Of a stretch of 64,000 nt of DNA, positions 1 to 64,000 are shown piece after piece (position 1 is the stretch's first letter; each line of letters opens with the position of its first letter). A model generated the notes under the pieces. It did no database searches. It saw nothing but the letters and a program-made list of their open reading frames with translations, and was not told the origin of the DNA. Source of the DNA: Campylobacteraceae bacterium (GTDB taxonomy: Bacteria; Campylobacterota; Campylobacteria; Campylobacterales; Campylobacteraceae); contig JAISAU010000007.1 in NCBI GenBank assembly GCA_031266555.1, forward strand, positions 1 through 64,000, in the 5' to 3' direction. The position numbers were made by a program, and so were the translations under genes.

Positions 1-197
1 AAAAAGGATAAAAGAAGAAAAGCTATTATCTTCATATTAAGACCTTATTATAAACTATGCACATATAAAGAATTAACAAAAAGAAATTTTAACTATATAA
101 AGTTAAAGTGAGGCTTAAAAAAGTAATTTTGAGCATAATTTTGGCGTGTTTTTGCCATTTTTATATATAATTGTGTTTTTGAAAGAAAGGAATGTTG

Positions 198-953
198 TTG
201 GATATAAAAGAATTGCTTGATTTGGAGGCGGCGAATAAAAACCGCAGTATTGGGCTTATGGAAGCGGCTGATCCGCTAAGGGTCGCGAAACCATATCGTG
301 ACGATATCATAGCGTTAATTTGCGCTTTATTTGCATATGGAAACGCTAAACTCATTGAAAAATTTCTACTCTCTCTTGATTTTTCAGCATTAAATGACAG
401 CGAAGATGTTATAGAGAAAAAATTGCAAGGACGATATTATAGGTTTCAGACAAACGAAGATGTAGCGGAGATTTTTAAAACATTCGCCAAATTTAAAAAA
501 GAGGCAAGTTTGGAGGATATTTTTTTAGAAGGATACAAAAAAGAGCGTAATGTAATAAATGGGATTAAAAATGTGTTGGAAAAGTTGTACTCTTTAAATC
601 CTTACAGAACTGTAGGCTATGAGTTTTTACTTGGCAAAATACCGTCGCAAAATCCTTCGTCGCCATATAAAAGGTGGAATATGTTTTTGCGTTGGATGGT
701 AAGAGACGATGAGCTTGATATGGGGCTTTGGAAGAGGGTGGATAAAGCTGATTTACTGATGCCGCTTGACGTTCATACGTTTAATGTTTCAAAAAAGCTT
801 GGACTTTTAAAGCGCAAAACTTATGATTTTAAAGCCGTTTTGGAGTTGACGCAAACGCTTCGTGGATTTGACGCCAAAGATCCCGTAAAATATGATTTCG
901 CGTTATATCGTCTGGGACAGTCAAAAGAGATAGAGAAAATTATTAAGCAATAA
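198..953 (+). CDS. TIGR02757 / DUF2400 family protein
   Basis: Protein of about 250 residues resembling the DUF2400 (TIGR02757) family, which is widespread in Campylobacterota and Bacteroidota and has no settled function. A conserved-looking PLDVHTFNVSKKLGLL block lies near residue 190, as expected for the family, and the length is typical. Start choice: an AAGGA Shine-Dalgarno at 187-191 touches the ATG at 192, which leaves no spacer, so the in-frame TTG at 198 (spacing 6) is more likely; the ATG remains possible. The gene stands alone, reads toward cysK and shares a bidirectional hairpin with it. Family call fairly sure, function unknown. Confidence 0.8.
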   Translation: MDIKELLDLEAANKNRSIGLMEAADPLRVAKPYRDDIIALICALFAYGNAKLIEKFLLSLDFSALNDSEDVIEKKLQGRYYRFQTNEDVAEIFKTFAKFKKEASLEDIFLEGYKKERNVINGIKNVLEKLYSLNPYRTVGYEFLLGKIPSQNPSSPYKRWNMFLRWMVRDDELDMGLWKRVDKADLLMPLDVHTFNVSKKLGLLKRKTYDFKAVLELTQTLRGFDAKDPVKYDFALYRLGQSKEIEKIIKQ

Positions 954-1026
954 TTTGAGGTTTTATTTTTTGTACGCAGAAAATGGATAAAAGTTTGTTG
1001 ATTAAAGCCTACATGTAACAACAAAA

Positions 1027-1057
1027 TTTTTCAAGAGACAAATTGCCTCTTGAAAAA
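1027..1057. terminator. Bidirectional terminator between DUF2400 gene and cysK
   Basis: Perfect 11-bp inverted repeat TTTTTCAAGAG / CTCTTGAAAAA around a 9-nt loop, between two convergent genes. The A/T ends of the stem supply a U-run in either direction. Confidence 0.8.
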
Positions 1058-1067
1058 CCATTATTTA

Positions 1068-3764: not shown

Positions 3765-4054
3765 GTATATTTATCGGAAAAGTATAAATTAAAATTACAC
3801 TATTATTTCAATAAAATAAATAATAATAGTCAAGTTTAACTTAAAATATAATGTAAATAAATCTTATTTCACGATTTTTACAAAAAAGTTAAAATAAAAA
3901 AAGCAAGTTTTTACAGCAAAAAAATTTTTATACATGTAGGTCGTTTTTTGGCGTATATTAACCGACAAAGTTGTAAATAAAGCTATTTAAATCGTTATGG
4001 CTAAATACAAGATTACTATGCTATAATCAAAACTTTTAAAAACCAAAAATAAAA
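3765..4054. other. AT-rich intergenic region with divergent promoters
   Basis: Separates the divergent metY and DUF2018 genes. It contains one TACATGTA palindrome (3931-3938), the metY promoter at its left edge and a -10 box for the housekeeping operon at 4022-4027. No small gene was recognised. Confidence 0.6.
4022..4027 (+). promoter_or_regulatory. Extended -10 of the DUF2018-hemA-ubiD operon
   Basis: TGCTATAAT, an extended -10 with no recognisable -35, ends 27 nt before the DUF2018 start. This is the usual promoter form in Campylobacterota. Confidence 0.65.
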
Positions 4055-4355: not shown

Positions 4356-5255
4356 ATGATGAAAAATATAGATAAATTTATGCGTTCCTTTATCGTTGAT
4401 TTGGGCGAAGAGAGTGTAGTCTCTTTTTTTGATAAGATTTCTCAGCAAGGTAAAAAACTACGTTCAAAACTTATAATTGAGATAGCAAAAACTTCAAAAC
4501 AATCTTTAGCACTAGCTTCGGTAGTAGAGATGATACACATAGCAAGTTTACTCCATGACGACGTGATAGACAACGCTTTAACTCGCAGAAGCGCAAATTC
4601 TTTTAACGCTGATTTTGGAGATAAGACGGCTATAATGATGGGCGATATTTTATATTCGTGCGCCTTTTCCAAATTAGCGTCTTTACCGCAATCTGTTGCC
4701 GTATTTGTCTCAAACGCGGTTGCGAATTTATCTGTGGGAGAACTTTTGGATGTGGAACTTTCAAAATCGTTCAACACAAATAAAGAGAAATATTTTAAAA
4801 TGATTTATTGCAAGACGGCTTCTTTGATTGAAGCTTCAGCTTATTCCGCCGCGATTTTAGAAGGATTTGAAGGCGAAGATTTTGCTCTGTACGGCAAAAA
4901 TTTAGGACTCGCGTTTCAGATAATAGACGACGTTTTAGACATAACTTCAAACGATAAAATACTTGGTAAACCAGCTTTGCACGATTTTAAAGAAGGCAAA
5001 GTAACGCTTCCTTATCTTTACATGTACGAAGGATGTAAAGATAAAGACAAAAAACATATGATGAGTTTATATAAAAAAAGTCTAAATAGTTACGAATGCG
5101 CTTGGATAAAAGATAAAATGAGCGAATTCAGAGTCGTAGAGCGATGTATTAAAGAGGCTAAAAATTTTGGCGATAAAGCTCTTGATGCTATAGAAAAATA
5201 CAATATGGACGGTTTAAAAAATATTATTAGGCAGATGATAGAAAGAGATTTTTAA
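4356..5255 (+). CDS. ispB: Polyprenyl (octaprenyl-type) diphosphate synthase
   Basis: Trans-prenyltransferase that extends farnesyl or geranyl diphosphate with isopentenyl diphosphate to make the quinone side chain. The first aspartate-rich motif is DDVID (Asp68, Asp69, Asp72) followed by the diphosphate-binding arginines in ALTRR; the second is IIDDVLD (Asp191, Asp192, Asp195). At 299 residues it is slightly short for IspB but full length in its core. It lies 7 bp after DUF2018 and overlaps hemA. Product chain length cannot be read from sequence by eye; ispA-type farnesyl synthase is the main alternative but less likely in this gene order. Confidence 0.85.
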   Translation: MMKNIDKFMRSFIVDLGEESVVSFFDKISQQGKKLRSKLIIEIAKTSKQSLALASVVEMIHIASLLHDDVIDNALTRRSANSFNADFGDKTAIMMGDILYSCAFSKLASLPQSVAVFVSNAVANLSVGELLDVELSKSFNTNKEKYFKMIYCKTASLIEASAYSAAILEGFEGEDFALYGKNLGLAFQIIDDVLDITSNDKILGKPALHDFKEGKVTLPYLYMYEGCKDKDKKHMMSLYKKSLNSYECAWIKDKMSEFRVVERCIKEAKNFGDKALDAIEKYNMDGLKNIIRQMIERDF

Positions 5256-6556
5256 TGCAGTATATGACTTTGAGCTTTACTCATAAGAATACAGATATTA
5301 AGACAAGAGAAAAACTCTCTTTCAATAGCGAAGAGAAGCTATATAACGTTCTTAAAATGATAACAAATCACGAAAATGTCAATGAAGCCGTGATACTCTC
5401 TACATGTAACAGAGTTGAAGTGATAACAAGCGTCAAAGAGTGCAAAGAGAGTTTATCGTTTATATTAAGCGTTTTGTCGCATATATCGAGTATAAATAAA
5501 GAAGAGCTTGAAAATAGAGCCGACGCGTATGAAAACGTAGGCGCTATACACCATCTTTTTGCGGTATGTTCCTCGCTTGATAGTCTTGTTGTCGGCGAGA
5601 CGCAAATATCTGGTCAACTGAAAACAGCTTTTAATTTTTCGCTCAAAAACGGATTTTGCGGACCGAAATTAAAACACGCCATGCAACAATGTTTTAAATG
5701 CGCGGCGACGATTAGAAGCAGCACCGATATATCTAAAAATCCCGTTTCGGTCTCGTCCGTAGCGGTATCAAAAGCAAAAGAGTTATTAAAAAATCTTGAC
5801 GGAATAAACGCCGTAGTTGTAGGAGCTGGAGATATGAGCGAGCTTGCCGCGAAACATCTTCTATCCTCAAACGCTAATGTGATAATAATTAACAGAAATT
5901 ACGAAAACGCTTTGGCTTTAGCTAAGAGGTTAGGTAAAAACAGTTCCGCGCAGCCGTTTTCAAATTTACGCGAAGCCATAAATAAATATCCTTTGGTTTT
6001 CAGTGCTACAGGCGCGCCGCACGCTATTATCACAAACGATATGGTTGAAGGCAAAGTTTTTGAGAGGTATTGGTTTGATATAGCCGTACCGCGCGATATA
6101 GAAGCTTGTCGTTTTGAAAACGTACATGTATACGCCGTAGACGATTTAGAGGAGATAGTCGCGAAAAATTTAGCTCTTCGCGAAGACCAAGCGAAAGTCG
6201 CTTATTCGATAGTGGGGCAGATGACCGCCGATTTTTTTAAGTGGCTTCAGGCGTTGTCGGTTGATCCTATCATAAAAGAGATTAGAAGCAGAGCCAAACA
6301 GAGCGCTTTAAGCGAGGTGGATAAAGCTGTAAAAAAAGGCTATATACAACAAGATATTAGACAAAATGTAGAGAAAATAATACACCAATCTTTTAATGTA
6401 TTTTTACACAAGCCGACAATAAATCTAAAAAATGTCTTAGAACTTGATGAATCCGATAAAATTATACAGTCGCTTCAATATTTTTTTGATATCAAAGACG
6501 AGCAGTTAAAAGATATTTCTACAACTAAATTTGAAAATTTTAGGAGAGATGAATGA
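5255..6556 (+). CDS. hemA: Glutamyl-tRNA reductase
   Basis: Catalyses the first committed step of C5-pathway tetrapyrrole synthesis, reducing Glu-tRNA(Glu) to glutamate-1-semialdehyde with NADPH. The catalytic cysteine is Cys51 in STCNRVEV, followed by GETQISGQ and the Rossmann segment [15 protein letters not shown]; a C-terminal dimerisation helix follows. At 433 residues it is standard. The start overlaps the ispB stop (TAATG) and the end overlaps proS by 4 bp, indicating translational coupling. The codons around Cys51 carry a TACATGTA palindrome (5401-5408). Confidence 0.97.
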
Positions 6557-8973: not shown

Positions 8974-9914
8974 GAGAGTTGATAATAGCTACAAGAGGAA
9001 GTAAATTGGCTCTTTGGCAATCTTGGTATATAAAAGCAAAATTAGAGGAAAAATATCCGAGTATCAGCGTTAAATTAAATATCATGAAGACTAAAGGCGA
9101 TAAGATATTAGATACTCCGTTGGCTAAAATCGGCGGCAAAGGTCTATTCACAAAAGAACTTGAAGACGCGATGTTAAAAGGCGAAGCGCATATAGCCGTT
9201 CATAGTCTTAAAGACGTTCCTGTGGTTTTTCCTAAAGGTCTGGTGCTTGGCGCGATAACAAAAAGAGAAGACGTTAGAGACGCTATGTTGTCTCAAAAAT
9301 ATGAGAATATAAACGCACTTCCCAAAAACGCGATCGTAGGAACCACAAGTTTAAGACGCAGAATGCAGCTTTTGCACGCGCGTCCTGATTTAATCATAAA
9401 AAATTTGCGAGGCAATATAAACACAAGAATTGAAAAATTAAAAAAAGGCGAATTTGACGCCGTGATTTTAGCGGTAGCCGGCGTAAAAAGACTTGGGCTT
9501 GAAAGCGAAATAAGATATTTTTCACCTATAGATACCGATTTTATGATTCCTGCTATGGGACAAGCCGCTTTAGGAGTAGAGACGGTTGACAAAGCGGAGA
9601 TTTTAGAAATAATAAATTTTTTAAACGATGACGATTGCGTTATGGAAACAAGAGTTGAAAGGGATTTTGTAAAAAGATTGGAAGGCGGTTGTCAAGTCCC
9701 GATAGGCGTAAACGCCAAAATCGATAAAAATAACATACATATAAAAGCCGTAGTCGGACTTCCAAACGGTAAAGAACTCTTACATGTAAGGATTGAAACA
9801 AAACGAGAAAATTATGAAAACGCAGGCGGCGAATTAGCCGACATAATAATCGCAAAAGGCGCTCAAGATATTTTGGCAAGAGCTGAAAAAATGGCGCTTG
9901 AGACGATTTTTTAA
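8970..9914 (+). CDS. hemC: Porphobilinogen deaminase (hydroxymethylbilane synthase)
   Basis: Polymerises four porphobilinogen units into hydroxymethylbilane. The N-terminal IATRGSKLALWQ, the substrate region HSLKDVP and the TTSLRRRMQLL arginine block are present. The dipyrromethane cofactor attaches to the Cys in LEGGCQVPIG (about residue 240). Length of 314 is standard. It overlaps the upstream exported-protein gene and is followed 13 bp later by ubiD. An in-frame TACATGTA lies at 9781-9788. Confidence 0.97.
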   Translation: MRELIIATRGSKLALWQSWYIKAKLEEKYPSISVKLNIMKTKGDKILDTPLAKIGGKGLFTKELEDAMLKGEAHIAVHSLKDVPVVFPKGLVLGAITKREDVRDAMLSQKYENINALPKNAIVGTTSLRRRMQLLHARPDLIIKNLRGNINTRIEKLKKGEFDAVILAVAGVKRLGLESEIRYFSPIDTDFMIPAMGQAALGVETVDKAEILEIINFLNDDDCVMETRVERDFVKRLEGGCQVPIGVNAKIDKNNIHIKAVVGLPNGKELLHVRIETKRENYENAGGELADIIIAKGAQDILARAEKMALETIF

Positions 9915-12631: not shown

Positions 12632-13139
12632 ATTTTTTTGAAAAAATTTGTTAAATGACATACGTTTTTTAAAAATATTTTAATTGGATATTTTTTTATT
12701 ATTTTTTTGCTTTTTAGCTTTTGAAATTAAAATTATTAGTTAGCCAAAATGCCGTTTTTATCGAGCTTTTGCAGTAAAAATATAAAAAATTATCAATAAA
12801 ATTTTCGCTTTATTAAATATGAAAAATACCTTAATTTTATTACTAAAATATAGTTCGGTTTAGATATAATTTTTAACTTTTTTGGCAAGATTTTTTTTAT
12901 ATAAAAATATTAATAATTTAAGACTTATAATATCTTATTTATGCGTTTCTAATCTATACATTTTAAAAATTTTAGAAGCTTAATTGAATATTGTACATAC
13001 ATGTAGTGCAGCATAATTATAGAAATTTCGCTTTAATATGATGACTAAAATAAAATAGTATGAGTTATATAAATTTATATTAGTTTATCAGTTTAGTATA
13101 GATACTTAAAGTTAAATCCAAGAATAAGGAGCATTGTTG
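12632..13139. other. 500-bp AT-rich leader region of the hydrogenase operon
   Basis: Very AT-rich, no open frame worth calling. Two TATAAT boxes (12865-12870 and 12926-12931) are possible -10 elements for hydA, and a TACATGTA palindrome lies at 12998-13005. The length suggests a long 5' leader or several regulator sites, but no specific site (NikR, Fur, CRP-like) could be identified with confidence. Confidence 0.5.
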
Positions 13140-14309: not shown

Positions 14310-16034
14310 ATGAGTAAAAGAATAGTAGTAGATCCGATTACCAGAATAGAGGGACATTTAAGAGTAGAGGTAGTGGTTGACGACAATAATGTTGTAACCG
14401 AAGCTTATTCGTCAGCTACTCTTTGGAGAGGACTTGAGCAGATTTTAAAAGGCAGAGATCCGCGTAACGCGGGCTTTTTTACACAAAGAATATGCGGTGT
14501 ATGTACATTTTCGCACTACAAAGCAGGTATCGTAGCGGTAGAAAACGCGCTTGGTATCACGCCTCCTTTGAATGCGCTTTTAACAAGAACGCTTATGAAT
14601 TGCGCGCTTTTTTTGCACGATCATCCGGTGCACTTTTACCAATTGCACGGACTTGATTGGGTGGATATAGTATCGGCGCTTAGCGCGGATCCGAAAAAGG
14701 CGAGCGACGAAGCGTTTAAATACGCGCCAACGCCTTATGCTACAGGCGCTGATCAACTAAAAGCCGTACAAGACAGAGTTGCGGCATTCGCGGGCAGAGG
14801 ACATCTTGGACCATTCAATAACGGTTACTGGGGACATAAAACTTACCAATTAACTCCAGAGCAAAATTTAATAGCTCTTTCACATTATCTTGAGTGTTTG
14901 AAAATCCAAAGAACAGTCGCTCAAATGATGGCGATTTTTGGCGCTAAACAACCGCATCCGCAAAGTTTAACGGTTGGCGGCGTTACATGTATTATGGATT
15001 TATTGGATCCCGCTCGTCTTGGTGAATATTTGACTAAATTTCAAGAGGTTGCCGACTTTATTAACCGAGCTTATTATCCAGATCTCGTTATGGCAGGCAA
15101 AGCTTACGCTAAAGAGGGAAGCGTTAATAAAGATATGGGCGTGGCTAATCTATTTACGTTTAAAGAGTTTCAATTGGGCGCGAATGATTGGTTGTTCGAT
15201 AGCGGTATTATTTTAAACGGCGATATAAGTAAAGTATATGAAGTTGACGAAGACAAAATAACGGAAGAGGCTACAAGATCTTGGTATAAAGACGATGAAC
15301 CGCTTCATCCGTACGATGGTAAGACAAATCCGAATTATACGGGCTTTAAAGAAGAAAAGACGATAGACGGCGACGGCAAAATGTCTTCAACGCAAGTTTT
15401 AGACGAGAGCGGCAAATACTCTTGGATAAAAGCTCCGCGATATGACGGCAAGCCGATGCAAGTCGGACCTTTAGCAAATATAGTTGTAAATTACGCTAAA
15501 GGAAATGAGAGAGTCGCGAAAGTAGTTGAGAAATTTTTAAGCGACACAGGACTTCCGGTGAGCGCTGTTTTTTCAACTTTAGGACGAACGGCATGTCGTA
15601 TGATAGAGGCAAAAATCGTTGCGGACAATGGACTTGAAGCGTTTAATAACTTGATAAACAATCTAAAAGTAGATCAAGAAACATGCGCTACTTATACGAT
15701 TGATAACAATCAAGAATATAGAGGCAGATACATAGGACATGTACCGCGAGGAACATTAAGCCATTGGGTAAAAATTAAAAACGGCGTTATAGAAAATTAT
15801 CAAGCCGTTGTTCCTTCAACGTGGAATGCGTCTCCAAAAGACGCGAGCGGCGTGCGCGGACCTTATGAAGAGTCGCTAATCGGTCTTAAAATAGCCGATT
15901 TGTCAAAACCTTTGGAAATTATCAGAGTTATCCATTCATACGACCCTTGCATCGCATGCGCCGTGCATGTAATGGATACTAAAGGTAATGAGATCGGCTC
16001 TTACAAAGTTGCTCAAGACAACATTGTTTGCTAA
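14310..16034 (+). CDS. hydB: [NiFe]-hydrogenase large subunit
   Basis: Catalytic subunit that splits H2 at the NiFe(CN)2CO centre. The nickel ligands are RICGVC (Cys62, Cys65) and DPCIACAVH (Cys547, Cys550). A 21-residue tail follows His553 and is the expected cleavage product of the HydD endopeptidase. At 574 residues it is normal for group 1 uptake enzymes. It is carried through the Tat pathway by the HydA signal. Twenty-one bp after hydA, 12 bp before hydC. Confidence 0.98.
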   Translation: MSKRIVVDPITRIEGHLRVEVVVDDNNVVTEAYSSATLWRGLEQILKGRDPRNAGFFTQRICGVCTFSHYKAGIVAVENALGITPPLNALLTRTLMNCALFLHDHPVHFYQLHGLDWVDIVSALSADPKKASDEAFKYAPTPYATGADQLKAVQDRVAAFAGRGHLGPFNNGYWGHKTYQLTPEQNLIALSHYLECLKIQRTVAQMMAIFGAKQPHPQSLTVGGVTCIMDLLDPARLGEYLTKFQEVADFINRAYYPDLVMAGKAYAKEGSVNKDMGVANLFTFKEFQLGANDWLFDSGIILNGDISKVYEVDEDKITEEATRSWYKDDEPLHPYDGKTNPNYTGFKEEKTIDGDGKMSSTQVLDESGKYSWIKAPRYDGKPMQVGPLANIVVNYAKGNERVAKVVEKFLSDTGLPVSAVFSTLGRTACRMIEAKIVADNGLEAFNNLINNLKVDQETCATYTIDNNQEYRGRYIGHVPRGTLSHWVKIKNGVIENYQAVVPSTWNASPKDASGVRGPYEESLIGLKIADLSKPLEIIRVIHSYDPCIACAVHVMDTKGNEIGSYKVAQDNIVC

Positions 16035-16046: not shown

Positions 16047-16733
16047 ATGTCTAAAGAAATTATTAGAGAGGTAGAGACAGAATATACCTCCGGCACAAGA
16101 TGGGTGCATTGGCTAAGATTTGTCTCGATAATAGCTCTGAGCGTTACAGGATTTTATATAGCTTATGTTTTTGTATCTCCCGAAATCTCTAATGAGCCCG
16201 TTTTGTTCTTGCAAGCGAAGATGAGAATGTGGCACGAGATATTCGGATTTTTGCTGATAGCGGTTACTTTGATAAAGATTTATCTATTCTTTTTTGATAG
16301 AAGCAGAGTACAGAAACTGGAAATTGTCTCTTTCAAAGACGTTTTAAGTCTAAAAGTTTGGATAGCGCAGATAAAATATTATCTTTTTTTAGGAGAACAT
16401 CCTAAATTGCATGGGGTTTATAATCCTTTGCAATTCGCTACTTACGCGTTTTTTTACATCGTACTGGTTTTGTTATGCTTAACAGGTTTGATACTTTATG
16501 TACATGTATATCATGAAGGACTCGGCGGTCTGCTATATCCTATTATGCGCCCGTTTGAAGCGCTTTTTGGCGGACTTGCCAACGTAAGAATAATCCATCA
16601 CATCGGTATGTGGGTAATTTTCTTATTTGTTCCGGTGCATGTGTATATGGTCATATTTAACTCCATAAAGGGTAAAGAGGGCGCTTTAGACGCTGTTGTG
16701 AGCGGTTTGAAATTTAAGCACAAAAAACACTAA
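16047..16733 (+). CDS. hydC: Ni/Fe-hydrogenase b-type cytochrome subunit
   Basis: Membrane di-heme cytochrome b that passes electrons from HydA to menaquinone. About four transmembrane helices are visible, with heme-ligand histidines in WVHWLRF (about residue 22), MWHEIFGF, IIHHIGMW and FVPVHVYM. The 228-residue length fits the family. A strong AGGAGG-like site precedes ATG 16047. Its presence indicates respiratory H2 oxidation rather than H2 evolution. Confidence 0.95.
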   Translation: MSKEIIREVETEYTSGTRWVHWLRFVSIIALSVTGFYIAYVFVSPEISNEPVLFLQAKMRMWHEIFGFLLIAVTLIKIYLFFFDRSRVQKLEIVSFKDVLSLKVWIAQIKYYLFLGEHPKLHGVYNPLQFATYAFFYIVLVLLCLTGLILYVHVYHEGLGGLLYPIMRPFEALFGGLANVRIIHHIGMWVIFLFVPVHVYMVIFNSIKGKEGALDAVVSGLKFKHKKH

Positions 16734-17290: not shown

Positions 17291-18939
17291 TATTAGTTTA
17301 TGAGTTTGAGTATGTTTCTAACAATAACGTTTTAGAGAATTTTTTACAAAATTTCGCGGACGAAAGCAAAATAGAATATTATATAACAAAAGACGGATGT
17401 AAAATTTCTTTACATGTAAGAGGCGATGAAGATATTTTGATAGCTTTTTCAGATAAATTATCAAATTCGCTTCCTTTTTCAATTTTTCTAAAGTCAACTT
17501 CTGTGAATGTTGCGAATGAATGGGATAACGATAAAGCTATCGTGGTACAAAAGTGCGAGATTTATATCCCTTTTACCAAAAAGGCTTTAAACGCGGCGAA
17601 AGATGAGTTTAATCCATTTGTAAAAAATGAAATAGGGCGAAATCTTGATATATATCCGCCGCTTGTTTTTACATGTAACGACAAAAGCACTGAATATAAA
17701 AACAGTTTCAAAGACGCTTTTTCAAAGGCGGTAGACGTTATCGCAAACGGTGAGAAAATAAATTTTAAAACTCTAAACGGCACGTTTTGCGTGTCTATGA
17801 TAAAAAAAGAGGCGATTTATAAAGACGATATACTGATAATGCCTTCGGATTTGAGTTTTGTCGATAAGATAGCCGTTTTAGAGGACGAAGAGGTCGCGAT
17901 ATTGGCTTCGCTTGAAAAGCCAACGATAAAAGCGCATACAAATTTGGTTTTTAGCTCGCAATATCCGAATTTTCCAAGGTTTATAAAATTAAAGCTCGCA
18001 AGCGACCTGTTTTTATATTTTTTATCTTTGGCGTTATTTAAAAAAGGGGTAAAGTTTGTTGTCTTAGAAGCTAAAGACGATAGAGTAAATACCTCGCTTT
18101 ATTTTAAACAAGAGATTAGAGATATTGAGCAGATTGAGGTTTGCGCGTTAAAAAGCGGGCAAAATATCATAACAAAAGGCACGTCTTTTACAACGCCAAA
18201 TCTTTTAAAAAATATAAAAACTCTAAAAAAGCGCCACCATATGCAGTTTGCCGCTACAATTCAAGAACTTGAACTTTTTGAGAAGACAAATTGCGGCATA
18301 TATTTGAGTTTAAATAACGACGATATGATTATGCTATACAACGACAAAGACGGTGTTCTTGATTTTATACAAGTTGATTTTGAGGATTGTTTGAGTCAAA
18401 TACTTGAAAATATAGAAAAAGACGACGATAACGGCAGAAAATTAATAGAAAAATATAAACAAAATTTTCCACAAATTTATGAAAACGCGAAAAATATATC
18501 GTTTAAAAATAAAAATATTTCAACTCTTTGGGCTGCGGCGGCTTATCTTTTAGGTTTTGGTGATAATCTATCTGACGCGCAAAGAAAGCTTTTTGAAAAT
18601 ATTGAGATTTTCGGCGGGCAAAAAGGACCAAGGATTGACTATAAACTTACAGATGAAAATAGCGTAAAAACATCGCTAAACGAACGTAAGTTTTTAAGAA
18701 GTGTGATGAGTTTCAAGTTAGCTGGTACGGACGATGAGATATTATCATTTGGAATAGCGGAGAGTTTGGTCTATTTTTTAAGCGATTTTGCGGATAAGGT
18801 GAAAGACGACTTTGAAGTTGAAAATATTTTACTTATGGGTTCTTTATTTGGCAGTAAAACCATATCAAATCTTTGCGTTAAACATATTGGCGTAAATCAC
18901 AAAGTCCATTTTAACAAAGAGCTGCCCATAGAGTTATGA
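17287..18939 (+). CDS. hydE: HydE-like hydrogenase accessory protein
   Basis: 550-residue cytoplasmic protein at the position of hydE in the hydABCDE operon of Helicobacter pylori and Wolinella. No catalytic motif is recognised. The C-terminal 150 residues (LAGTDDEILSFGIAESL, ILLMGSLFGSKTISNL) resemble in layout the Kae1-like end of HypF, but the metal-binding histidines are not evident. It is translationally coupled to both hydD and hypF by ATGA overlaps, so a maturation role is likely (inference). Two TACATGTA sites lie inside, encoding different residues (LHV and TC). Confidence 0.75.
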   Translation: MILVYEFEYVSNNNVLENFLQNFADESKIEYYITKDGCKISLHVRGDEDILIAFSDKLSNSLPFSIFLKSTSVNVANEWDNDKAIVVQKCEIYIPFTKKALNAAKDEFNPFVKNEIGRNLDIYPPLVFTCNDKSTEYKNSFKDAFSKAVDVIANGEKINFKTLNGTFCVSMIKKEAIYKDDILIMPSDLSFVDKIAVLEDEEVAILASLEKPTIKAHTNLVFSSQYPNFPRFIKLKLASDLFLYFLSLALFKKGVKFVVLEAKDDRVNTSLYFKQEIRDIEQIEVCALKSGQNIITKGTSFTTPNLLKNIKTLKKRHHMQFAATIQELELFEKTNCGIYLSLNNDDMIMLYNDKDGVLDFIQVDFEDCLSQILENIEKDDDNGRKLIEKYKQNFPQIYENAKNISFKNKNISTLWAAAAYLLGFGDNLSDAQRKLFENIEIFGGQKGPRIDYKLTDENSVKTSLNERKFLRSVMSFKLAGTDDEILSFGIAESLVYFLSDFADKVKDDFEVENILLMGSLFGSKTISNLCVKHIGVNHKVHFNKELPIEL

Positions 18940-21152
18940 AAATTTGCAAAACTTATGAAATTGAGGGCAGGGTGCAAGGGGTAGGATTTCGCCCGTTTGT
19001 CTTTGTTCTCGCGCGAAAATTCAATCTAAACGGTTTTGTATATAATAATTCTAACGGCGTTTATGCTGAAATTGAAGGCGATGAGAGTGATATAAAAGAG
19101 TTTGAGTTTGAGCTCAAAAATCACACGCCTCCTCTTGCCAGAATAGACAAAATTGTCGTAAATAGCGTGTTTATAAGAGATTTTACAGATTTTAAAATAC
19201 TAAAAAGCGAAACTTCACACTCCAAAAATACGCCGATTTCTCCCGATATGTCTTTATGTCCGGAATGTTTAAAAGAGATGTCGGACGCAAGTAACAGACG
19301 CTTTGGTTATCCTTTGATAAATTGCACGAATTGCGGTCCAAGATACTCTATCGTCTATACCGTTCCTTATGACAGGGCGAATACATCTATGAGCAAATTC
19401 AAAATGTGTCCGGAATGTGAAACCGAATACAATAATCCGCTGAATCGTCGTTATCACGCTCAGCCGATAAGTTGTTCAAAATGCGGCCCAACTATAAAAT
19501 TTTATGATTTAAACGGTTTTAACACAGAAAGCAATCCGCTTCAGCGATTGGCTTTAGCTATAAATGAGGGTAAGATAGTAGCCCTCAAAGGCATGGGCGG
19601 TTTTCATATAATTTGCGACGCTTTAAACGAGCGAGCCGTTTTAAATTTGAGGGATAAAAAAAGACGCAAAACAAAGCCTTTTGCCGTACTTTTTGATTCT
19701 CTTGAAATGATAAAAGAGTATTGCGACACAACTGAATATGAAGAAGAAGCGCTTTTAAGTCAGGTTCGCCCCATAGTTCTTGTTAAAAAGAAAAAGCTAT
19801 GCGCGTTGCCGGATAGCATTGCTCCGAATATTGATAGGCTCGGCGTTTTTTTACCTTATACGCCCTTACATGTAATGCTTTTAAAAATACTTCAAAAACC
19901 TCTTATCGCTACAAGCGCCAATATAAGCGGCGAACCTATAATAACAGATAGATACGAGATCGAGCAAAAGTTAAAAAATGTTATAGAAGCGTATGTTGAT
20001 TTTGACAGAGACATAGTAAATTTTAGCGACGACAGCGTTTTGCAACTTATAGGGAAAAATACTATTTTTTTAAGACTTTCAAGAGGTATCTCGCCAAAAT
20101 CATTTAAAACGTCTTACATATGCAAGGAAAAAATATTGGCTCTTGGTGCGCATCAAAAAAACGCTATCGCTATCTTTAACGACTCAAATGTCACGATGAG
20201 TCCTCATATAGGGGATTTGGAAAACATAAAAAGCATTGAAGCGTTTGAGCATAGTATAGATATGTTTAAAAGATTTTACGATTTTACCCCTTCGCTTTTG
20301 GTTTGCGATAAGCATCCGAATTACTACTCTACGCTTTGGGCAAAAAAGCAAAATATTCCTATAATCTTCGTGCAACACCACTACGCGCATATTTTGGCTG
20401 TTATGTTTGAACACAATATAAGCGACGAAGTTTTAGGTATAGCATGGGACGGAACCGGATTTGGAGACGATAAAAGTATTTGGGGCGGAGAGTTTTTTTT
20501 ATGCGATTTAAAAACTTATAAAAGAGTTTGCTCATTTAAGCCGTTTAAGCTATTAGGCGGCGATAAAAGCGTCAAAAATATCGGTAGAATTGCCTTTTCA
20601 ATTCTGTATCCTCATAAACAAAATCCTATTGTCGCGGCGTATTTGGACAACTTCTCAAAAGGGGAGCAATATCTTTTAGAACAAGCTTACGAAAAAAATA
20701 TAAACGCGCCGCTGTGCAGTTCTGTCGGACGACTTTTTGACGCCGCGGCAGCCATAATTCTAAAACAAAAAACAGTAACTTATGACGGCGAGAGCGGATT
20801 GTGCCTTGAATCTTTGTATGACAAAGATATTCAAGATAGCTATGACATAGTTATTAATGAAAATGGTGAGATAGAGTATGTTCATTGGTTTTTAGAAATG
20901 CTTCAAGATGAACCCAAAATCGCCGCTTCAAAATTCATCAACACTCTTTCAATATTAATAGCGCGCATAGCCGGAAAATATGGGAAAAAAGTTGTGCTTA
21001 GCGGAGGCGTTTTTCAAAATTGGACGCTTGTAGAAAAGACAATGGAACTGTTGGAAAAAGAGCATGTAGAACTATTTTTGCCAAAAACTATATCGCCAAA
21101 TGATAGCTCAATCGCTCTTGGACAGATAACCTACGCGTTAAATAATTTATAA
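18936..21152 (+). CDS. hypF: Carbamoyltransferase HypF, cyanide ligand synthesis
   Basis: Makes the thiocarboxamide on HypE that becomes the CN ligands of the NiFe centre, from carbamoyl phosphate and ATP. Domain order is complete: acylphosphatase (VQGVGFRPFVF, residues 14-24), two zinc-finger pairs (CPECLKEM, CTNCGPRY; CPECETEY, CSKCGPTI), YrdC-like ATP domain, and Kae1-like domain with HHYAHILAVMFEH and SGGVFQNWTL. At 738 residues it is full length. Last gene of the hyd operon. The remaining hyp genes begin 9.7 kb downstream, after an accessory stretch. Confidence 0.97.
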   Translation: MKICKTYEIEGRVQGVGFRPFVFVLARKFNLNGFVYNNSNGVYAEIEGDESDIKEFEFELKNHTPPLARIDKIVVNSVFIRDFTDFKILKSETSHSKNTPISPDMSLCPECLKEMSDASNRRFGYPLINCTNCGPRYSIVYTVPYDRANTSMSKFKMCPECETEYNNPLNRRYHAQPISCSKCGPTIKFYDLNGFNTESNPLQRLALAINEGKIVALKGMGGFHIICDALNERAVLNLRDKKRRKTKPFAVLFDSLEMIKEYCDTTEYEEEALLSQVRPIVLVKKKKLCALPDSIAPNIDRLGVFLPYTPLHVMLLKILQKPLIATSANISGEPIITDRYEIEQKLKNVIEAYVDFDRDIVNFSDDSVLQLIGKNTIFLRLSRGISPKSFKTSYICKEKILALGAHQKNAIAIFNDSNVTMSPHIGDLENIKSIEAFEHSIDMFKRFYDFTPSLLVCDKHPNYYSTLWAKKQNIPIIFVQHHYAHILAVMFEHNISDEVLGIAWDGTGFGDDKSIWGGEFFLCDLKTYKRVCSFKPFKLLGGDKSVKNIGRIAFSILYPHKQNPIVAAYLDNFSKGEQYLLEQAYEKNINAPLCSSVGRLFDAAAAIILKQKTVTYDGESGLCLESLYDKDIQDSYDIVINENGEIEYVHWFLEMLQDEPKIAASKFINTLSILIARIAGKYGKKVVLSGGVFQNWTLVEKTMELLEKEHVELFLPKTISPNDSSIALGQITYALNNL

Positions 21153-21344
21153 TTTACAAATCCGCCCCATTTTTATATGTACTTTTTATTGTTTATAATA
21201 TTTTCGCATTCAGTTTTTCTCGTCATTGCGGTAACTATCTATACGAACTATACGAAAACTTTACATGTAAGGTTTAGAGTTAGTAAAAATATGCGGATAT
21301 CATAAAAAAGAGATACCTGTAAAGGTTTTTGCATCTTTTTTTCT

Positions 21345-21424: not shown

Positions 21425-21552
21425 ATCTCTACATGTAGAGCTTTTATCGTTTTACGCTTTTATATAAAAACATTCGCACATCTTATCTTTTATCTCAAAC
21501 ACAATATTTTCTCTTTCAATTCTTACATATAAGCTTTTCCGTCATTGCGAGC
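21390..21552 (+). repeat. 160-bp imperfect direct repeat, unit 1
   Basis: Runs from one class A element to the next and includes the shared stretch ATTCGCACATCTTATCTTTT and a following T/C-rich block. It matches unit 2 with scattered substitutions, offset about 425 bp. Confidence 0.85.
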
Positions 21553-46981: not shown

Positions 46982-47184
46982 ATTTTGCTTCCTTAAAGAT
47001 TTTATTACAAACAGTAAGCCAAATCTCCCCACAAGATTGCGAAGGTAATTTAAACATTTTTTAATTAAATATTCGCTTATTTTTTTTTATAGTTTTTAGT
47101 AAATATTTTCGTTTAAAAATTGAGATAAAATTTTAGATAATAGATTTTTTTATCATGTAATACTCTACATGTAGAGGCTATTTT
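46982..47184. other. Intergenic region with 14-bp palindrome CTCTACATGTAGAG
   Basis: AT-rich. It contains the perfect palindrome CTCTACATGTAGAG at 47163-47176, behind the amidotransferase gene, flanked by T-rich runs on both sides. Confidence 0.6.
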
Positions 47185-47883
47185 TTAATTTTTCTCTTTA
47201 CAAAACTCCACAAATTTTTCAATTAAACTATTCGCGTAAAGCGTTTCGCAAATCTCTTTTAAAACTATAGGAACATTTTTAATGCGATTCGCCTCTTTAA
47301 ATACATACTCTTTTAAGATATCGGCGTTATATTCGGGATGAAATTGTACTCCCCAGATGTTATTTTTGATTCTGAAAGCATGACAGCTTTCGTAACAATT
47401 TGACGCTAATAAAACGGCGTTTTTTGGAAGTTTTAAAACCGATTGCGTATGAGTTACATGTACTAAAAAATTTTCCGGCAAGTTTTTAAAAAGCGCGTCT
47501 GATTTAGCTTTTTCGTGCAAAGTTACGCTAACAGTGCCGATTTCCGGACCTACGGGATGATTATCGACAATCCCGCCAAAAGTTTGAGCCAAAAGTTGAT
47601 GTCCGAAACATATTCCAAAAATCGGCAAATTGTTTTTAGTCGCTTCTTTTAGCCACGCCGACGATTTTTTAATCCAATCAAATTCGTCGGTAACCATATC
47701 GTGAGAGCCTGTTATGATTATGCCTTGCACATTTTTGAAATCTGGCAAATTTTGACTTTTAGGATTTACTATTTTAACTTCTTTAGCGTCTACATGCATA
47801 GAGTTTAATGTCCAATCTTCAAAGTCGCCATATTTCTCCACGCACTTTCTCATGGAGCTGCCAGCTTTCAATATGATAAACAC
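47185..47883 (-). CDS. Class I glutamine amidotransferase, GMP synthase-like
   Basis: Stand-alone 232-residue GATase domain. The catalytic Cys is in IFGICFGHQLLAQ (about residue 93) and the His-Glu pair in GVQFHPEYN. The N-terminal ILKAGSS and GDFEDW match a family often annotated as GuaA-like without a synthetase domain. Substrate unknown. The start is GTG with a weak Shine-Dalgarno; an internal ATG at residue 11 is less likely because family members keep the ILKAG segment. It follows the MliC-like gene by 20 bp. Confidence 0.88.
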   Translation of the reverse strand: MFIILKAGSSMRKCVEKYGDFEDWTLNSMHVDAKEVKIVNPKSQNLPDFKNVQGIIITGSHDMVTDEFDWIKKSSAWLKEATKNNLPIFGICFGHQLLAQTFGGIVDNHPVGPEIGTVSVTLHEKAKSDALFKNLPENFLVHVTHTQSVLKLPKNAVLLASNCYESCHAFRIKNNIWGVQFHPEYNADILKEYVFKEANRIKNVPIVLKEICETLYANSLIEKFVEFCKEKN

Positions 47884-50134: not shown

Positions 50135-50348
50135 CTCTTTCCTTGGGCTTAATTTAATTTAAATGATTTTTCACAATGCGTTATATTCTACTATTTTTTT
50201 TCTCAAATTACGATAATATTTGTGACGTTTTTATTGTTTTATCTATATTTTTTTAAAATAAAGTTCCTACATGTAAGGGTTCTTAAACTTTTTTATACTT
50301 CGTTTTGGCTAATATTTCAATAAAATTGAGAGTCAAGGAGAGAGCAAA
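50135..50348. other. Divergent promoter region rsfS / gap
   Basis: Contains a TACATGTA at 50268-50275 and the AAGGAGAG Shine-Dalgarno of gap. No gene seen. Confidence 0.5.
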
Positions 50349-54176: not shown

Positions 54177-54291
54177 GTCTACATGTAACTTCAAAATTTA
54201 GTTTACACAACTTAAAAATCTGACTATTTTATATTTATATTTTTTTCAACATGTGATACAATATCAAATCTCAATACAAAGAAGGATTGTT

Positions 54292-55149
54292 GTGAAAAAA
54301 TATCTCCTTTTGCCATCTCTCATTCTTATTTTTATCCTCTTTTTTTCAGGCTGCTCCACAAAAACGCCTCTTTTTTCAGACATAATACCCGAAGGATCTC
54401 CGATATATAATGTAAAAGGCTTTAAAGACAAAAGAATAAGAGCCGCATTTATTACAACATTCAAAAGTACCGCAAACTTTGAGAAAGACGAATGCGGAAT
54501 ATACAATATCAATACAAATAAAAGAGGGGCGAGACTTGCAGGACAAATGTATGTAGCCGAAGATGAAAATTATGAGATAGACATACCTGTAGTTATTAAC
54601 GACAATGGTAATGGCTGCAATTATAAATTTGTCGGAATTGAACTTGATTTAAGAAGGATAAGCAGCGAAAAAGATATTGATTACATGTACTCCAGATTTA
54701 TGCTGTTGCTTGACAGACCTGAGAATGATTTGACTATATATTTCGGACGAAAAACAGGAAGCGGCGGAAGCGGTTATGACGCTGAAGTGTTGCCTCCATT
54801 TTTCTTTACAAACAAAAAGTATTTTCAAATAGCTCCCGATACCACCTTTCTTTGTAGAACCGTATGGAGTGAATGGATAGAAAAAGAAGATAAAAGTAAT
54901 GATTTTCATTGCGCTATGGAGATAAATAGCGGAGACGCTAAGTTTTATCCAAAAGATAAGTTAGAAAGAGTTGTTACCAACCCACAATTTGGAGTAGAGA
55001 CAATAGTAAGCTCAAATCTAACCATAAACATCATAGCTGACGATAACGGCTCTATTGCTTATCATGGCGGTGGTACTGGAATACACCCTGATAGATTTAG
55101 AGAATATATTCCATCTAAGAAAAGCGTATTTCAAAAACTATTTGACTAA
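54292..55149 (+). CDS. Lipoprotein, candidate immunity partner of the Tle lipase
   Basis: 285 residues from GTG 54292 (AGGA 5 nt upstream). Lipobox FFSGC at about residue 20, so an outer- or inner-membrane-anchored periplasmic protein. No known domain recognised. It ends 12 bp before the DUF2235 lipase gene and is co-directional. Tle effectors of the type VI system are normally encoded next to a periplasmic lipoprotein (Tli) that protects the producer; the role here is inferred from this layout only. Confidence 0.7.
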   Translation: MKKYLLLPSLILIFILFFSGCSTKTPLFSDIIPEGSPIYNVKGFKDKRIRAAFITTFKSTANFEKDECGIYNINTNKRGARLAGQMYVAEDENYEIDIPVVINDNGNGCNYKFVGIELDLRRISSEKDIDYMYSRFMLLLDRPENDLTIYFGRKTGSGGSGYDAEVLPPFFFTNKKYFQIAPDTTFLCRTVWSEWIEKEDKSNDFHCAMEINSGDAKFYPKDKLERVVTNPQFGVETIVSSNLTINIIADDNGSIAYHGGGTGIHPDRFREYIPSKKSVFQKLFD

Positions 55150-56595: not shown

Positions 56596-57079
56596 CGAAT
56601 AGCTTAAAAATTAAGTACATGTAATAAATTTTTACCGCACTTTTACATGTGAAACCAAAAATCTTAAATATTATCAACAGAAACAGGTTAAGATCATAAG
56701 CTAAGCTTCACATGTAAATGGTTTTGTTGATAGTAGGTTTGCGCATAAACCTTACATGTAGATAACTTATTGATGGTTACCTTGCAAGCCATACATGTAA
56801 GATAACCGTATCAAAAACTAAGTTCACGCAAAAAACTTTACATGTAAAGAAATTTTTGAGCAAAAAGAGACGTTGTTTTAGCTAAACTTATACAACAAAA
56901 GTCTTACATGTAAAGGTGCGGGTTGCGAAAATAAAACTTGCATAAAAGATCTTACATGTAACAAACTCGTGATATGTTATTTTATTGTTCGTTGTTTTTG
57001 TTTAATATATCGCGCTAATTTTTGACGCTTTTATTTATTATTGTTTGTTGAGGAAAAAAATTGATTAAAGAGCTTTACG
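56596..57079. repeat. Array of eight TACATGTA-type palindromes
   Basis: Gene-free 484 bp. Exact TACATGTA at 56616, 56753, 56792, 56839, 56905 and 56953, with one-base variants at 56644 and 56709, spaced 28-66 bp. The flanks are partly shared: CATAAA or CAAAAA-like bases before, and TAGATAAC or TAAGATAAC after, two of the sites. Confidence 0.85.
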
Positions 57080-58047: not shown

Positions 58048-58761
58048 CTATAAATCAAACAAACTTCTAGTCTGTTTCGCTTTTTTTTGAGATGTTGGTG
58101 ATTTTTTTGTTTTAGTCGCTTTGTTTTGTGTCGGCTCTATGATTTCATCATTATTCGTGTTCTCGCCTTTATCTTGTTTTTCATCCGAAAACTCACTGTT
58201 TTCCTCTACATGTAAGGCGTTATTTTCAATATCAATATTTTTTACGTTTGCGCGCGGAAATAATTTCACTTTTACAAATATAAAAAAAGCGGCTATTAGA
58301 GCAGCCAAAAATATGGCTACATAGAGTAAAGCATCTAATATATATGCGACAATACTTTCATTATTAGCGCCGTTTGCTATGGCTTCTATCGTAATGGGGA
58401 TTGATTTTGGCGTTAAGCTTATGCGAATTTCATTTGTGTTGTTTGAGATGAGCGCGTCGTAAGTTTGTTCGCTTTTTACAATCAAGCGAGATTCGTTCGC
58501 GCTCAATTGGCTTAATTTTATATACTCTATATTTGGAGAGTTTCGCTGATTTTGCGCGGATAATTTTACTCCAAGACCTTTAATGACGAATATCATCTCT
58601 TCATCGCTGTTTTTTTGCTCTATCAAACCTTCCCAATTGCCCTCAAACGACAAAACTACTTCAGCGTTTCCAGTCTCGTTTTCTTGAATTTCATAACTTA
58701 AGATATTTGCCGCCAATAGCGGTAAAGAGATGAAAATAAGCGATAATAAAAAGCAACGCAT
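58048..58761 (-). CDS. Exported membrane protein, AMIN-like N-terminus
   Basis: 237 residues: signal peptide (FLLSLIFISLPLLAAN), a periplasmic beta-rich part of about 110 residues (YEIQENETGNAEVVLSFEG, reminiscent of AMIN domains that bind peptidoglycan), one transmembrane helix (about 138-160) and a lysine-rich cytoplasmic tail. Not a named family as far as I can tell. Divergent from uvrA. Confidence 0.75.
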   Translation of the reverse strand: MRCFLLSLIFISLPLLAANILSYEIQENETGNAEVVLSFEGNWEGLIEQKNSDEEMIFVIKGLGVKLSAQNQRNSPNIEYIKLSQLSANESRLIVKSEQTYDALISNNTNEIRISLTPKSIPITIEAIANGANNESIVAYILDALLYVAIFLAALIAAFFIFVKVKLFPRANVKNIDIENNALHVEENSEFSDEKQDKGENTNNDEIIEPTQNKATKTKKSPTSQKKAKQTRSLFDL

Positions 58762-61671: not shown

Positions 61672-61712
61672 AATTTGTATTAAAATTTTATGTTTACATG
61701 TAAGAGTTTGAT

Positions 61713-61718
61713 TATAAT
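61713..61718 (+). promoter_or_regulatory. -10 box of polA
   Basis: TATAAT within the palindrome GATTATAATC, 36 nt before the GTG start of polA and just after a TACATGTA (61695-61702). Confidence 0.5.
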
Positions 61719-61753
61719 CAGCTACGACGTAATTTAATAAATTAGGATAAAGA

Positions 61754-64000
61754 GTGAAAACCATAACCATAATTGATACTTTCGGATTTTTTTTTAGAAG
61801 TTATTACGCGCTGCCGAATTTAAAAAATTCAAAAGGAGAACCTACCGGACTATTGATGGGTTTTGCTAATTTTATACACTCGATAGAGAAAGATTACCCC
61901 TCTGATTATATACTGTTCGCGCTTGATAGCAAAGGCAAGACGTTTCGTCACGATATTGATGAAAATTATAAAGCGAACAGAGTTGAACCGCCTGAGGATT
62001 TAAGAAAGCAACTTCCCATCGCTATAGAGTGGATTAAAAAAATGGGATTTGCCGAATACTCAAAAGAGGGTTATGAAGCGGACGACGTCATAGCTTCAAT
62101 GGTGAAATTTGCAAAAAACAGCGATTTAAGAGTGCGAATTGTTACGCACGATAAGGATTTGTATCAGTTAATAGACGATGGTAAAGTCACTATATTTGAA
62201 CCTGTCAAAAAGATAGAGATAGGCGAAAAAGGGTGCTTTGACAAGTTTGGATTGCCGCCTTCAAAAATTAGAGACTATTTGGCGCTTACCGGCGACGCGT
62301 CCGATAATATTCCCGGAGTTAAAGGCATAGGGCCGGTGGGAGCGAGAAAGCTTTTAAGCGAATTTGGCGATATAAAAAATATATATGAAAATATAGATAA
62401 AGTGAGAAACGAAAGGATTAAAGAGCTTTTAAAAGAGGGTCGGCAAAGCGCGTTTATAAGCTTAAAACTTACCGCGCTTGACGACTCTTTGGACGTTTAT
62501 GAAAAACTTGAAAAGTTTCAATTCCCGGTTGATGAACCGCTGCTTGCGATAAAAGACGAATTGCTTGAAAATAGTATGCATACTATCTTAAATCGCGTTA
62601 GTGTAAAAAAGAGACAAGAGGTTTTGAGTTTTGAAGCTATTTTGCTTGACAGCAGAGAAAAACTTTTTGAAGTCGTAGACAAAATCCCGCAAAGCGCGCT
62701 TTTAGCGTTTGATACCGAAACAAACTCTTTGGATTCGAGAAACGCCGATATTATCGGATTTTCATTTTGTTTTGAAGAAGATAGAGCTTATTATGTGCCT
62801 ATCGCGCACTTTTATCTTGGAGTCGGCGAGCAAGTAAGCAAAAGCGACGCCAAAGAAGCGCTTCGTAAACTCTTTGAGCGCAAAATTATAGGTCAAAATA
62901 TCAAATTTGACATGAACGTTATATCTAATAATTTTGATTTAAAGATAGATATTTATGCTGACACTATGATAATGGCATGGCTTTTAAGTTCCGAATATAG
63001 CGTTAGTATGGACTCTTTGGCAAAAAGACTTTTAAATTATACTACTGTGAAATTTTCCGAGATTGTACAAAAAAAATCTACTTTTGCCGACGTTGATATA
63101 AAAACGGCTTGCGATTATGCCGCGGAAGACGCGTGGGTGACGCTTAAGCTATTCCATAAATTAAAAGATTTGCTTGAGCCAAAACTTCTTGAGATAGCAA
63201 GACATGTAGAGTTTTTGTTCATAGAAATTTTAAGAGATATGGAAAACGAGGGTATAAAAGTAGATACGGATTATTTGTCAAAATTGCTTCAAAAAAGCGA
63301 AAGTGCTATCGGAGAACTCACTAAAGAGATTTATAAACTATGCGACAGAGAGTTTAACATAAATTCGCCTCAGCAAATGGGTAATATTTTATTTGAGCAT
63401 TTAGGTCTAAAAGCATATAAAAAGACGAAAATCGGCTATAGCACAGATGAAAATGTTTTAAGCGAACTTGTAAAAGAACACCCTGTAGTTGAAAAACTTT
63501 TGGAGTATAGGGAACTTTATAAATTAAAATCCACATACATAGAGCCGCTCTTAAAACTTGGACTTTCAGATAAAAATTCGCGCGTGCGCACAAGTTTTTT
63601 GCAGACAGGAACATCTACGGGAAGACTTAGTTCAAAAGAGCCGAATTTGCAAAATATTCCGGTCAGAACCGAGCTTGGCAAAGAGGTAAGAGCGGCGTTT
63701 ATAGCAAAAGAGGGATTTAAACTCATAGGTATTGATTATTCGCAAATAGAGCTTAGGCTTTTAGCGCATTTTAGTTTGGACGAAGCTTTGGTAAACGCTT
63801 TTATGGGGGATAAAGATATCCATTTTGAGACTGCCGTTAAGCTTTTCGGCGAAAACGCCAAGAGTATGAGAAACGTTGCGAAAAGTATCAATTTTGGACT
63901 ATTATACGGTATGGGCGCTAGAAAATTAGCGCAAACCATTAATGTCTCTCAAACAGAAGCGAAAGGCTATATAGATAGCTATTTCGCCTCTTTTCCAACC
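61754..64000 (+). CDS. polA: DNA polymerase I (partial, 3' end outside window)
   Basis: 749 codons without a stop up to the window edge. The GTG start gives MKTITIIDTFGFFFRSYYALP, the typical N-terminus of the 5'-3' exonuclease domain (YEADDVIAS, HDKDLYQL, GDASDNIPGVKG). The 3'-5' proofreading domain keeps DTETNS and the YAAED motif, so it should be active. The polymerase domain begins at about residue 500 with STGRLSSKEPNLQNIP and IDYSQIELR (metal-binding Asp). Repairs gaps and removes RNA primers; next to uvrA, as in related genomes. Confidence 0.97.
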   Translation, partial: MKTITIIDTFGFFFRSYYALPNLKNSKGEPTGLLMGFANFIHSIEKDYPSDYILFALDSKGKTFRHDIDENYKANRVEPPEDLRKQLPIAIEWIKKMGFAEYSKEGYEADDVIASMVKFAKNSDLRVRIVTHDKDLYQLIDDGKVTIFEPVKKIEIGEKGCFDKFGLPPSKIRDYLALTGDASDNIPGVKGIGPVGARKLLSEFGDIKNIYENIDKVRNERIKELLKEGRQSAFISLKLTALDDSLDVYEKLEKFQFPVDEPLLAIKDELLENSMHTILNRVSVKKRQEVLSFEAILLDSREKLFEVVDKIPQSALLAFDTETNSLDSRNADIIGFSFCFEEDRAYYVPIAHFYLGVGEQVSKSDAKEALRKLFERKIIGQNIKFDMNVISNNFDLKIDIYADTMIMAWLLSSEYSVSMDSLAKRLLNYTTVKFSEIVQKKSTFADVDIKTACDYAAEDAWVTLKLFHKLKDLLEPKLLEIARHVEFLFIEILRDMENEGIKVDTDYLSKLLQKSESAIGELTKEIYKLCDREFNINSPQQMGNILFEHLGLKAYKKTKIGYSTDENVLSELVKEHPVVEKLLEYRELYKLKSTYIEPLLKLGLSDKNSRVRTSFLQTGTSTGRLSSKEPNLQNIPVRTELGKEVRAAFIAKEGFKLIGIDYSQIELRLLAHFSLDEALVNAFMGDKDIHFETAVKLFGENAKSMRNVAKSINFGLLYGMGARKLAQTINVSQTEAKGYIDSYFASFPT

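Follow-up and report, generated by a model that had tools for sequence, protein, structure and literature searches.

The DNA stretch analysed here (the window) comprises positions 1 to 64,000 of contig JAISAU010000007.1 from the assembly GCA_031266555.1 of a Campylobacteraceae bacterium, and the element in question is a short palindrome, TACATGTA, which occurs in it both between and within genes. This octamer has a GC content of 25% and is its own reverse complement, as can be seen by inspection. An earlier note on this DNA had counted about 43 copies against about two expected, and thus estimated an excess of about 20-fold. We found 43 exact copies as well, but the expectation proved to be lower: dinucleotide shuffles of the window (n = 100) gave a mean of 0.44 and a maximum of 3, and Markov models of order 2-3 predicted 0.8-1.1 copies. 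The excess is thus about 40-fold or more, and not 20-fold. When extended by its flanks, the motif was found 15 times as TTACATGTAA and four times as CTACATGTAG.

According to a simple gene prediction, only 11% of the window is intergenic, and this part harbors 25 of the sites, the other 18 being coding, which agrees with the 25 intergenic sites, in about a tenth of the DNA, reported previously. Some of the intergenic sites stand at 1010..1017, 3931..3938, 12998..13005, 21262..21269, 34445..34452, 47166..47173, 50268..50275, 54180..54187 and, behind uvrA, at 61695..61702. Others are clustered: three at 29115..29122, 29204..29211 and 29241..29248; five in a convergent gap, at 43035..43042, 43127..43134, 43192..43199, 43307..43314 and 43344..43351; and six behind a gene end, at 56616..56623, 56753..56760, 56792..56799, 56839..56846, 56905..56912 and 56953..56960. 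Two more (21430..21437 and 22065..22072) belong to a dispersed repeat region spanning 21318-23612, pieces of which match many places in the same genome and in other members of the genus, and which also contains a 372-aa open reading frame (ORF) with a GLUG motif. Coding sites were found at 31832..31839, 33190..33197, 34328..34335, 43885..43892 (in the pyruvate kinase gene), 47455..47462, 54682..54689 and 58207..58214; the remaining ones are given below together with their state in related genomes.

The abundance of TACATGTA is a property of the whole genome. The genome containing the window (G000; 1.52 Mb in 25 contigs, 75% complete) carries 874 copies in total, as compared to 32 copies of the reversed control. 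The sequence read amounted to 1.19 Mb, of which 1.157 Mb was analysed after removal of contig C1, consisting of N only (30,823 bases). Here, 687 copies were present against 17-19 expected under Markov models of order 2-3, and among all 8-mers, palindromic or not, TACATGTA showed by far the strongest excess; its density in G000 is about 570/Mb. The enrichment is thus neither limited to the 64 kb nor close to a Markov expectation genome-wide, a point which the earlier note had left to be checked. One might still suspect a compositional or coding artefact of the assembly or the lineage, as both the motif and the genome are AT-rich and the coding copies of TACATGTA fall most commonly in one reading phase, read as x-His-Val. 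On the other hand, the excess holds in Markov models and against the reversed control, and after correction for composition it still amounts to about 29-fold within genes (292 copies where about 10 are expected, spread over the three reading phases) and to about 68-fold in intergenic DNA; moreover, the motif recurs in single-contig genomes and also at 45% GC in another genome of the family (G151). We regard the chance of such an artefact as practically nil, and TACATGTA is almost certainly a real genome-wide motif, either functional or driven. It needs to be mentioned that several other words, namely GATC, CTAG, GGCC, TCGA and TTCGAA, are strongly depleted in the same genome.

Sites are concentrated at gene ends. 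In G000, their density reaches 2.6/kb between genes versus 0.29/kb within genes, and it differs among types of gaps, amounting to 4.1/kb in convergent, 2.5/kb in tandem and 1.6/kb in divergent ones. Division of the tandem gaps into fifths gave 52, 63, 44, 30 and 9 sites, i.e. the sites lie near the end of the upstream gene and are scarce in the final fifth, next to the following start codon. The previous impression that they mostly follow operon ends thus extends to a gene-end bias genome-wide. Intergenic sites are frequently spaced closely, by about 30-75 bp. Facing pairs capable of forming a hairpin were in weak excess, based on small numbers: 5 of 6 vs 1.3 expected in G151 and G152 together, and 7 of 72 vs 2.9 in G000. 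A larger hairpin-pair excess obtained at one point (18 vs 4.4) was rejected, since the flanks of facing consensus sites are complementary by themselves and the shuffle control was therefore unfair. The idea that site-free stretches are prophages was dropped too, as two such regions gave almost no PHROG matches.

Two related genomes, G141 and G140, the latter from the window's own genus, were aligned to G000. The closest relative found is G141, with about 85% identity over the 17 kb compared. As many as 56 of 89 aligned G000 sites were intact in G141, as compared to 29% of random octamers, and 34 of 47 aligned G140 sites were intact in G000 (random octamers, 32%). In the comparison with G141, the raised identity was confined to the 8 bp and did not extend to the flanks; the comparison with G140 was noisier. 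Within the window, the coding sites at 5019..5026 and 5401..5408 are present in G141 and substituted in G140, the one at 6123..6130 is present in G141 and reads TACATATA in G140, the one at 9781..9788 is present in G141 and not in G140, and the one at 19867..19874 is present in G141 and reads TGCATGTA in G140. The sites at 16501..16508 and 17411..17418 are present in G141, where the one at 17670..17677 reads TACATATA. Three further coding sites are present in G140 and changed in G141: 14984..14991 (to TACATGTG), 24091..24098 in a nikR-like gene (to TGCATATA) and 30360..30367 (to TATATGTA).

Sites gained or lost in the aligned relatives are point substitutions with unbroken flanks. Of the 39 single-base differences at sites, 38 were transitions, whose share in the background is about 78% (p 0.0007). 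An indel state was seen for 9% of sites, random octamers giving 3%. Flanking sequence in common with another site was found for no more than 72 of the 687, 12 of them belonging to the dispersed repeat. As the differences are of the substitution type and shared flanks are few, TACATGTA sites arise and persist by substitution, not by insertion. This bears directly on the suggestion of the earlier note that a mini-palindrome, or a transposon footprint, has spread by inserting itself at many places. The intergenic clusters with their short spacing and the 12 sites within the repeat would suit such an element, but the relatives are substituted at the very same positions, and the low shares of indels and of common flanks are equally difficult to reconcile with it. 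Nor do the sites behave like mobile elements of the repetitive extragenic palindromic (REP) type, which insert themselves with common element ends. We thus consider a spreading mini-palindrome very improbable indeed.

The consensus is longer and softer than the octamer itself. Pyrimidines are preferred before it and purines after it, and the sequence 6-9 bp out is AT-rich; this preference is sharper in two genera (g11 and g12), giving the extended form CTTTACATGTAAAG. In G000, words with a single mismatch were enriched when the change affected the outer positions (CACATGTA, 153 vs 15; AACATGTA, 126 vs 45; GACATGTA, 73 vs 22; TGCATGTA, 70 vs 21). Changes within the central CATG were at or below expectation, except for a weak excess of TACCTGTA (21 vs 11-18).

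The motif is shared by several genera of three families, all within one order. The nearest named match of UvrA encoded in the window comes from the uncultured Campylobacteraceae metagenome-assembled genome Ct408_bin2 (93%). In the window's own genus, TACATGTA counts per genome range from 5 to 874, and other genomes of the same family carry 1605 (G150), 1480 (G151) and 1031 (G152) copies. Two further Campylobacteraceae genera have the motif and Campylobacter-like genera are without it; in the many genomes of six genera of this family (g2-g7), as well as in the Helicobacter-like genomes of our sample, it stays at background. In one other family (f20), up to 1,496 copies of TTACATGTAA per genome were counted (Sulfurospirillum reaching about 1,500), and some genomes of another one (f16) contain 77-367. 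The name of Sulfurospirillum was assigned through a plasmid: the second replicon of G171 is 100% identical, over the 5 kb compared, to the Sulfurospirillum diekertiae plasmid pSDCE1 (39,868 bp), and hence G171 is S. diekertiae and its genus (g31) is Sulfurospirillum. In two genomes TACATGTA was rarer than the reversed control (5 vs 17 in G148, 1 vs 15 in G117), which suggests that they avoid the word, perhaps due to a restriction enzyme. A search of viral contigs with a 14-mer returned 120 stretches, nearly all of them single matches, and was uninformative. As for the surroundings of the sites in the window, positions 34600-42982 encode a 2,012-aa bacterial alpha-2-macroglobulin directly followed by a penicillin-binding protein of 780 aa whose C-terminus is of the PbpC type.

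Such copy numbers resemble those of the Neisseria DNA uptake sequence (DUS) and the Haemophilus uptake signal sequence (USS), with which TACATGTA also has in common the excess between genes and some facing pairs at gene ends. It could thus be an ordinary uptake signal, read as an octamer by a pilus or competence protein regardless of methylation. Its scarcity on the backbone of the Sulfurospirillum plasmid pSulSP (4 sites in 50 kb, as compared to 31 sites in 44 kb, or about 0.7/kb, in eight short pieces of chromosome) and the hairpin-capable pairs somewhat above expectation speak for this idea. However, pSDCE1 holds 14 sites in 39.9 kb, an intermediate density; the hairpin numbers are small; TACATGTA is a palindrome without an orientation-bearing core, which DUS and USS are not; and no receptor was identified. 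The association with a methyltransferase clade, described below, would in this case be a coincidence requiring another reason. An uptake signal independent of methylation is thus unlikely in our view. On pSDCE1 (L448 1918-2461, 20494-21355), four of the 14 sites are located inside a D12 methyltransferase gene carried by the plasmid itself, and five in and around a LexA-family gene.

A candidate for an enzyme that would modify the motif is encoded elsewhere in the genome. G000 has a D12-class adenine methyltransferase of 332 aa (G000:C13:91434-92432, minus strand, locus L119), located outside the window, with the Pfam MethyltransfD12 domain, a DPPYN motif and no adjoining restriction gene. In a tally made by hand, members of the L119 clade were present in 29 of the 40 genomes that had 60 or more copies of TTACATGTAA vs about 76 of 359 others (Fisher p ~1e-10, kinship ignored), and in the high-count genomes inspected the clade enzyme was solitary. 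Among Sulfurospirillum genomes, those with the vertically inherited gene (n = 14) have 362-512 TTACATGTAA sites/Mb and nearly complete ones without it (n = 5) have 19-389 (p 0.0003, kinship ignored). In a tree, the L119 clade groups with two Helicobacter-family enzymes of 58% identity. Helicobacter pylori M.HpyI methylates C-m6A-TG (PMC10423294), and the two enzymes would appear to be its relatives of CATG specificity. This placement links the clade to restriction-modification (RM) systems of CATG type, such as NlaIII and iceA-HpyI. In nine low-count genomes the methyltransferase adjoins a common HNH-type ORF, probably its restriction partner (endonuclease), in contrast to the enzyme standing alone in the high-count genomes inspected; furthermore, no enrichment of an extended octamer is known from CATG systems. 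In three genomes of the window's own genus (G145, G142 and G138; L318, L304 and L305), a CATG-clade methyltransferase lies beside fragments resembling RM genes, which suggests decay of a former system. The density of TACATGTA inside methyltransferase genes was nothing special. Other enzyme families were rejected as the possible writer: PF01555 methyltransferases are absent from G000, G141, G150, G331, G311, G247 and G488, and PF00145 cytosine methyltransferases from G000, G152, G247, G488 and G423.

Known systems closest to TACATGTA are found in cyanobacteria, as HIP1 and alternate highly iterated palindromes (HIPs; GCGATCGC etc.; Elhai 2015, PMC4390886). HIP1 reaches 300-2,700/Mb in cyanobacteria, a range into which the densities of G000 and of the Sulfurospirillum genomes with the vertically inherited gene fall as well; its deviant copies are changed most often at positions 1 and 8 and least often at the methylated centre (PMC4390886). 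The likeness includes a palindromic octamer in tens-fold excess, with hundreds to thousands of copies per Mb, sites in and between genes, flank extensions which keep the palindrome, outer-position near-misses, and a partial link to solitary methyltransferases with exceptions, some genomes having lost the motif. The two differ in sequence and phylum, TACATGTA being AT-rich and alternate HIPs GC-rich; a high GC content and cyanobacterial hosts, however, delimit where HIPs have been described and do not define their function. Further differences are the strong gene-end bias of TACATGTA, its occurrence in three families with divergent methyltransferases, and the recognition of its core by a methyltransferase, which is putative here. 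For HIP1 it was proposed that methylation-guided mismatch repair turns near-misses into the motif, so that no benefit is necessary (Elhai 2015). The HIP1-like near-miss pattern, the methyltransferase association and the predominance of transitions at our sites would all suit such a drive. On the other hand, MutL (PF01119) was absent in all 20 genomes tested, high- and low-count ones, with 11 of 14 control genomes positive. The HIP1 explanation probably depends on this protein, and therefore its MutL-dependent form does not fit, other repair routes being still conceivable; the strong gene-end bias would in addition require selection. Repair drive is thus quite unlikely to be the cause.

The main rival of the uptake step proposed below is a dimeric, abundant protein organising or segregating the chromosome, or a nucleoid protein, which binds the palindrome, with selection for even coverage and with the methyltransferase being a bystander or a modulator; this would leave similar marks. 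A two-fold symmetric site with a long and soft consensus suits the footprint of a dimer. Also the fact that the same motif goes along with divergent methyltransferases (36-67% mutual identity), and is found in genomes without one, as well as the sites shunning promoters and favouring gene ends, can be read in this way. Nevertheless, described sites of this type usually number from tens to about a hundred, in contrast to the 900-1,500 per genome found here, the spread of copy numbers inside one genus would be odd for an essential organiser, and no candidate protein was found. A binding protein of this kind is possible, though rather unlikely.

We thus tentatively favour the following explanation, plausible though short of probable: TACATGTA, with its extended form CTTTACATGTAAAG, is a HIP-like palindrome by which the whole genome marks itself, methylated at CATG and multiplied by biased uptake. 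In this scenario, a solitary D12-class N6-adenine methyltransferase would methylate CATG at the centre of the octamer, or a longer form of this core, and a second protein would recognise the octamer. Natural transformation would then favour uptake and recombination of DNA bearing the motif in its methylated form, and thus the copies would multiply. There is a precedent in the same order: in Campylobacter jejuni, uptake is restricted to DNA that CtsM has methylated, at the site RAATTY (PMC8468864, PMC8627207), and hence methylation-dependent self-recognition at uptake does exist in Campylobacterales. This, together with the likeness to HIP1 and the absence of MutL, is why a methylated palindrome multiplied by biased uptake is preferred, with modest confidence. 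Uptake as the driver is in itself a tentative and somewhat doubtful proposal. It is also conceivable, yet rather unlikely, that the methyltransferase of a former CATG RM system has gone solitary, methylated TACATGTA now serving as a tag of kin DNA that is multiplied by transformation.

CtsM resembles the enzyme considered here in being a solitary adenine methyltransferase. However, D12 homologues from Campylobacter (364-375 aa), which match the RAATTY enzyme M.Cco280II (364 aa) in size and are presumably CtsM, judging by size and distribution, are only about 32% identical to L119 and form an outgroup to the motif-associated clade. The sites differ as well, RAATTY being six bases long and common (28,482 copies in a Campylobacter coli genome) and TACATGTA a rare word that is over-represented (PMC8468864, PMC8627207).

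Several observations weigh against a methylated uptake tag. L119 is, as just noted, a distant relative of CtsM and not its orthologue, and known uptake signals are not palindromic. ComEC was found in each of the 21 genomes searched for it, whether their counts were high or low; such ubiquity permits the uptake idea and lends it no support, as it does not discriminate between the two groups. The excess of near-misses was absent in G151 and G152. In nearly complete genomes with high TTACATGTAA counts, namely G321 (934), G237 (567), G373 (412), G269 (340, a single contig) and G260 (238), no D12 methyltransferase was detected, and therefore the link between the enzyme and the motif is partial. Pairwise comparisons within the genus of the window support an association in 26 of 42 cases, which is not significant; here the D12 fragments seen in G140 and G136 were scored as a lack of the enzyme. 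A p value of 0.04 obtained before for the same genus was withdrawn, as it relied on taking these fragments, which cannot be assigned to the L119 clade, for broken copies. Finally, the total number of CATG in G000 is at expectation (2618 vs 2643), only the TA-CATG-TA context being enriched, and thus a CATG enzyme alone cannot pick the octamer; to do so would take a further reader or an enzyme recognising a longer site. For these reasons (D12-less high-count genomes, no significant link within the genus, unenriched CATG) the methyltransferase should be viewed as a candidate and not a demonstrated cause, and the arguments for and against its involvement appear to us evenly balanced. The possibility, raised in the earlier note, that the palindrome is a modification site receives partial support, from a CATG-type-clade D12 enzyme in most high-count genomes but not from the five lacking any.

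The earlier note was not aware of a comparable element having been described in the Campylobacterota, and a limited search of the open-access literature agrees with it. TACATGTA as a whole word was found only in oomycete papers, TTACATGTAA in no paper describing a genome-wide bacterial motif, as far as titles and abstracts tell, and nothing on it was found in open-access literature on Sulfurospirillum and over-represented motifs; a comparative-genomics paper on this genus does not discuss the motif in the passages found. The Chi site is orientation-dependent and non-palindromic, unlike TACATGTA. Our best reading is that this is a HIP-like class new to the phylum.

HIP1 has been an unexplained feature of cyanobacterial genomes, and TACATGTA constitutes an independent instance in another phylum. 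As it has cultured hosts (Sulfurospirillum), a wide spread of copy numbers among close relatives and no MutL in its genomes, it tells apart hypotheses which are difficult to distinguish in cyanobacteria. A link between a solitary methyltransferase, DNA uptake and a genome-wide motif also becomes directly testable and, if the tag mechanism is true, it would bring HIPs, uptake sequences and the CtsM system together in a single mechanism.

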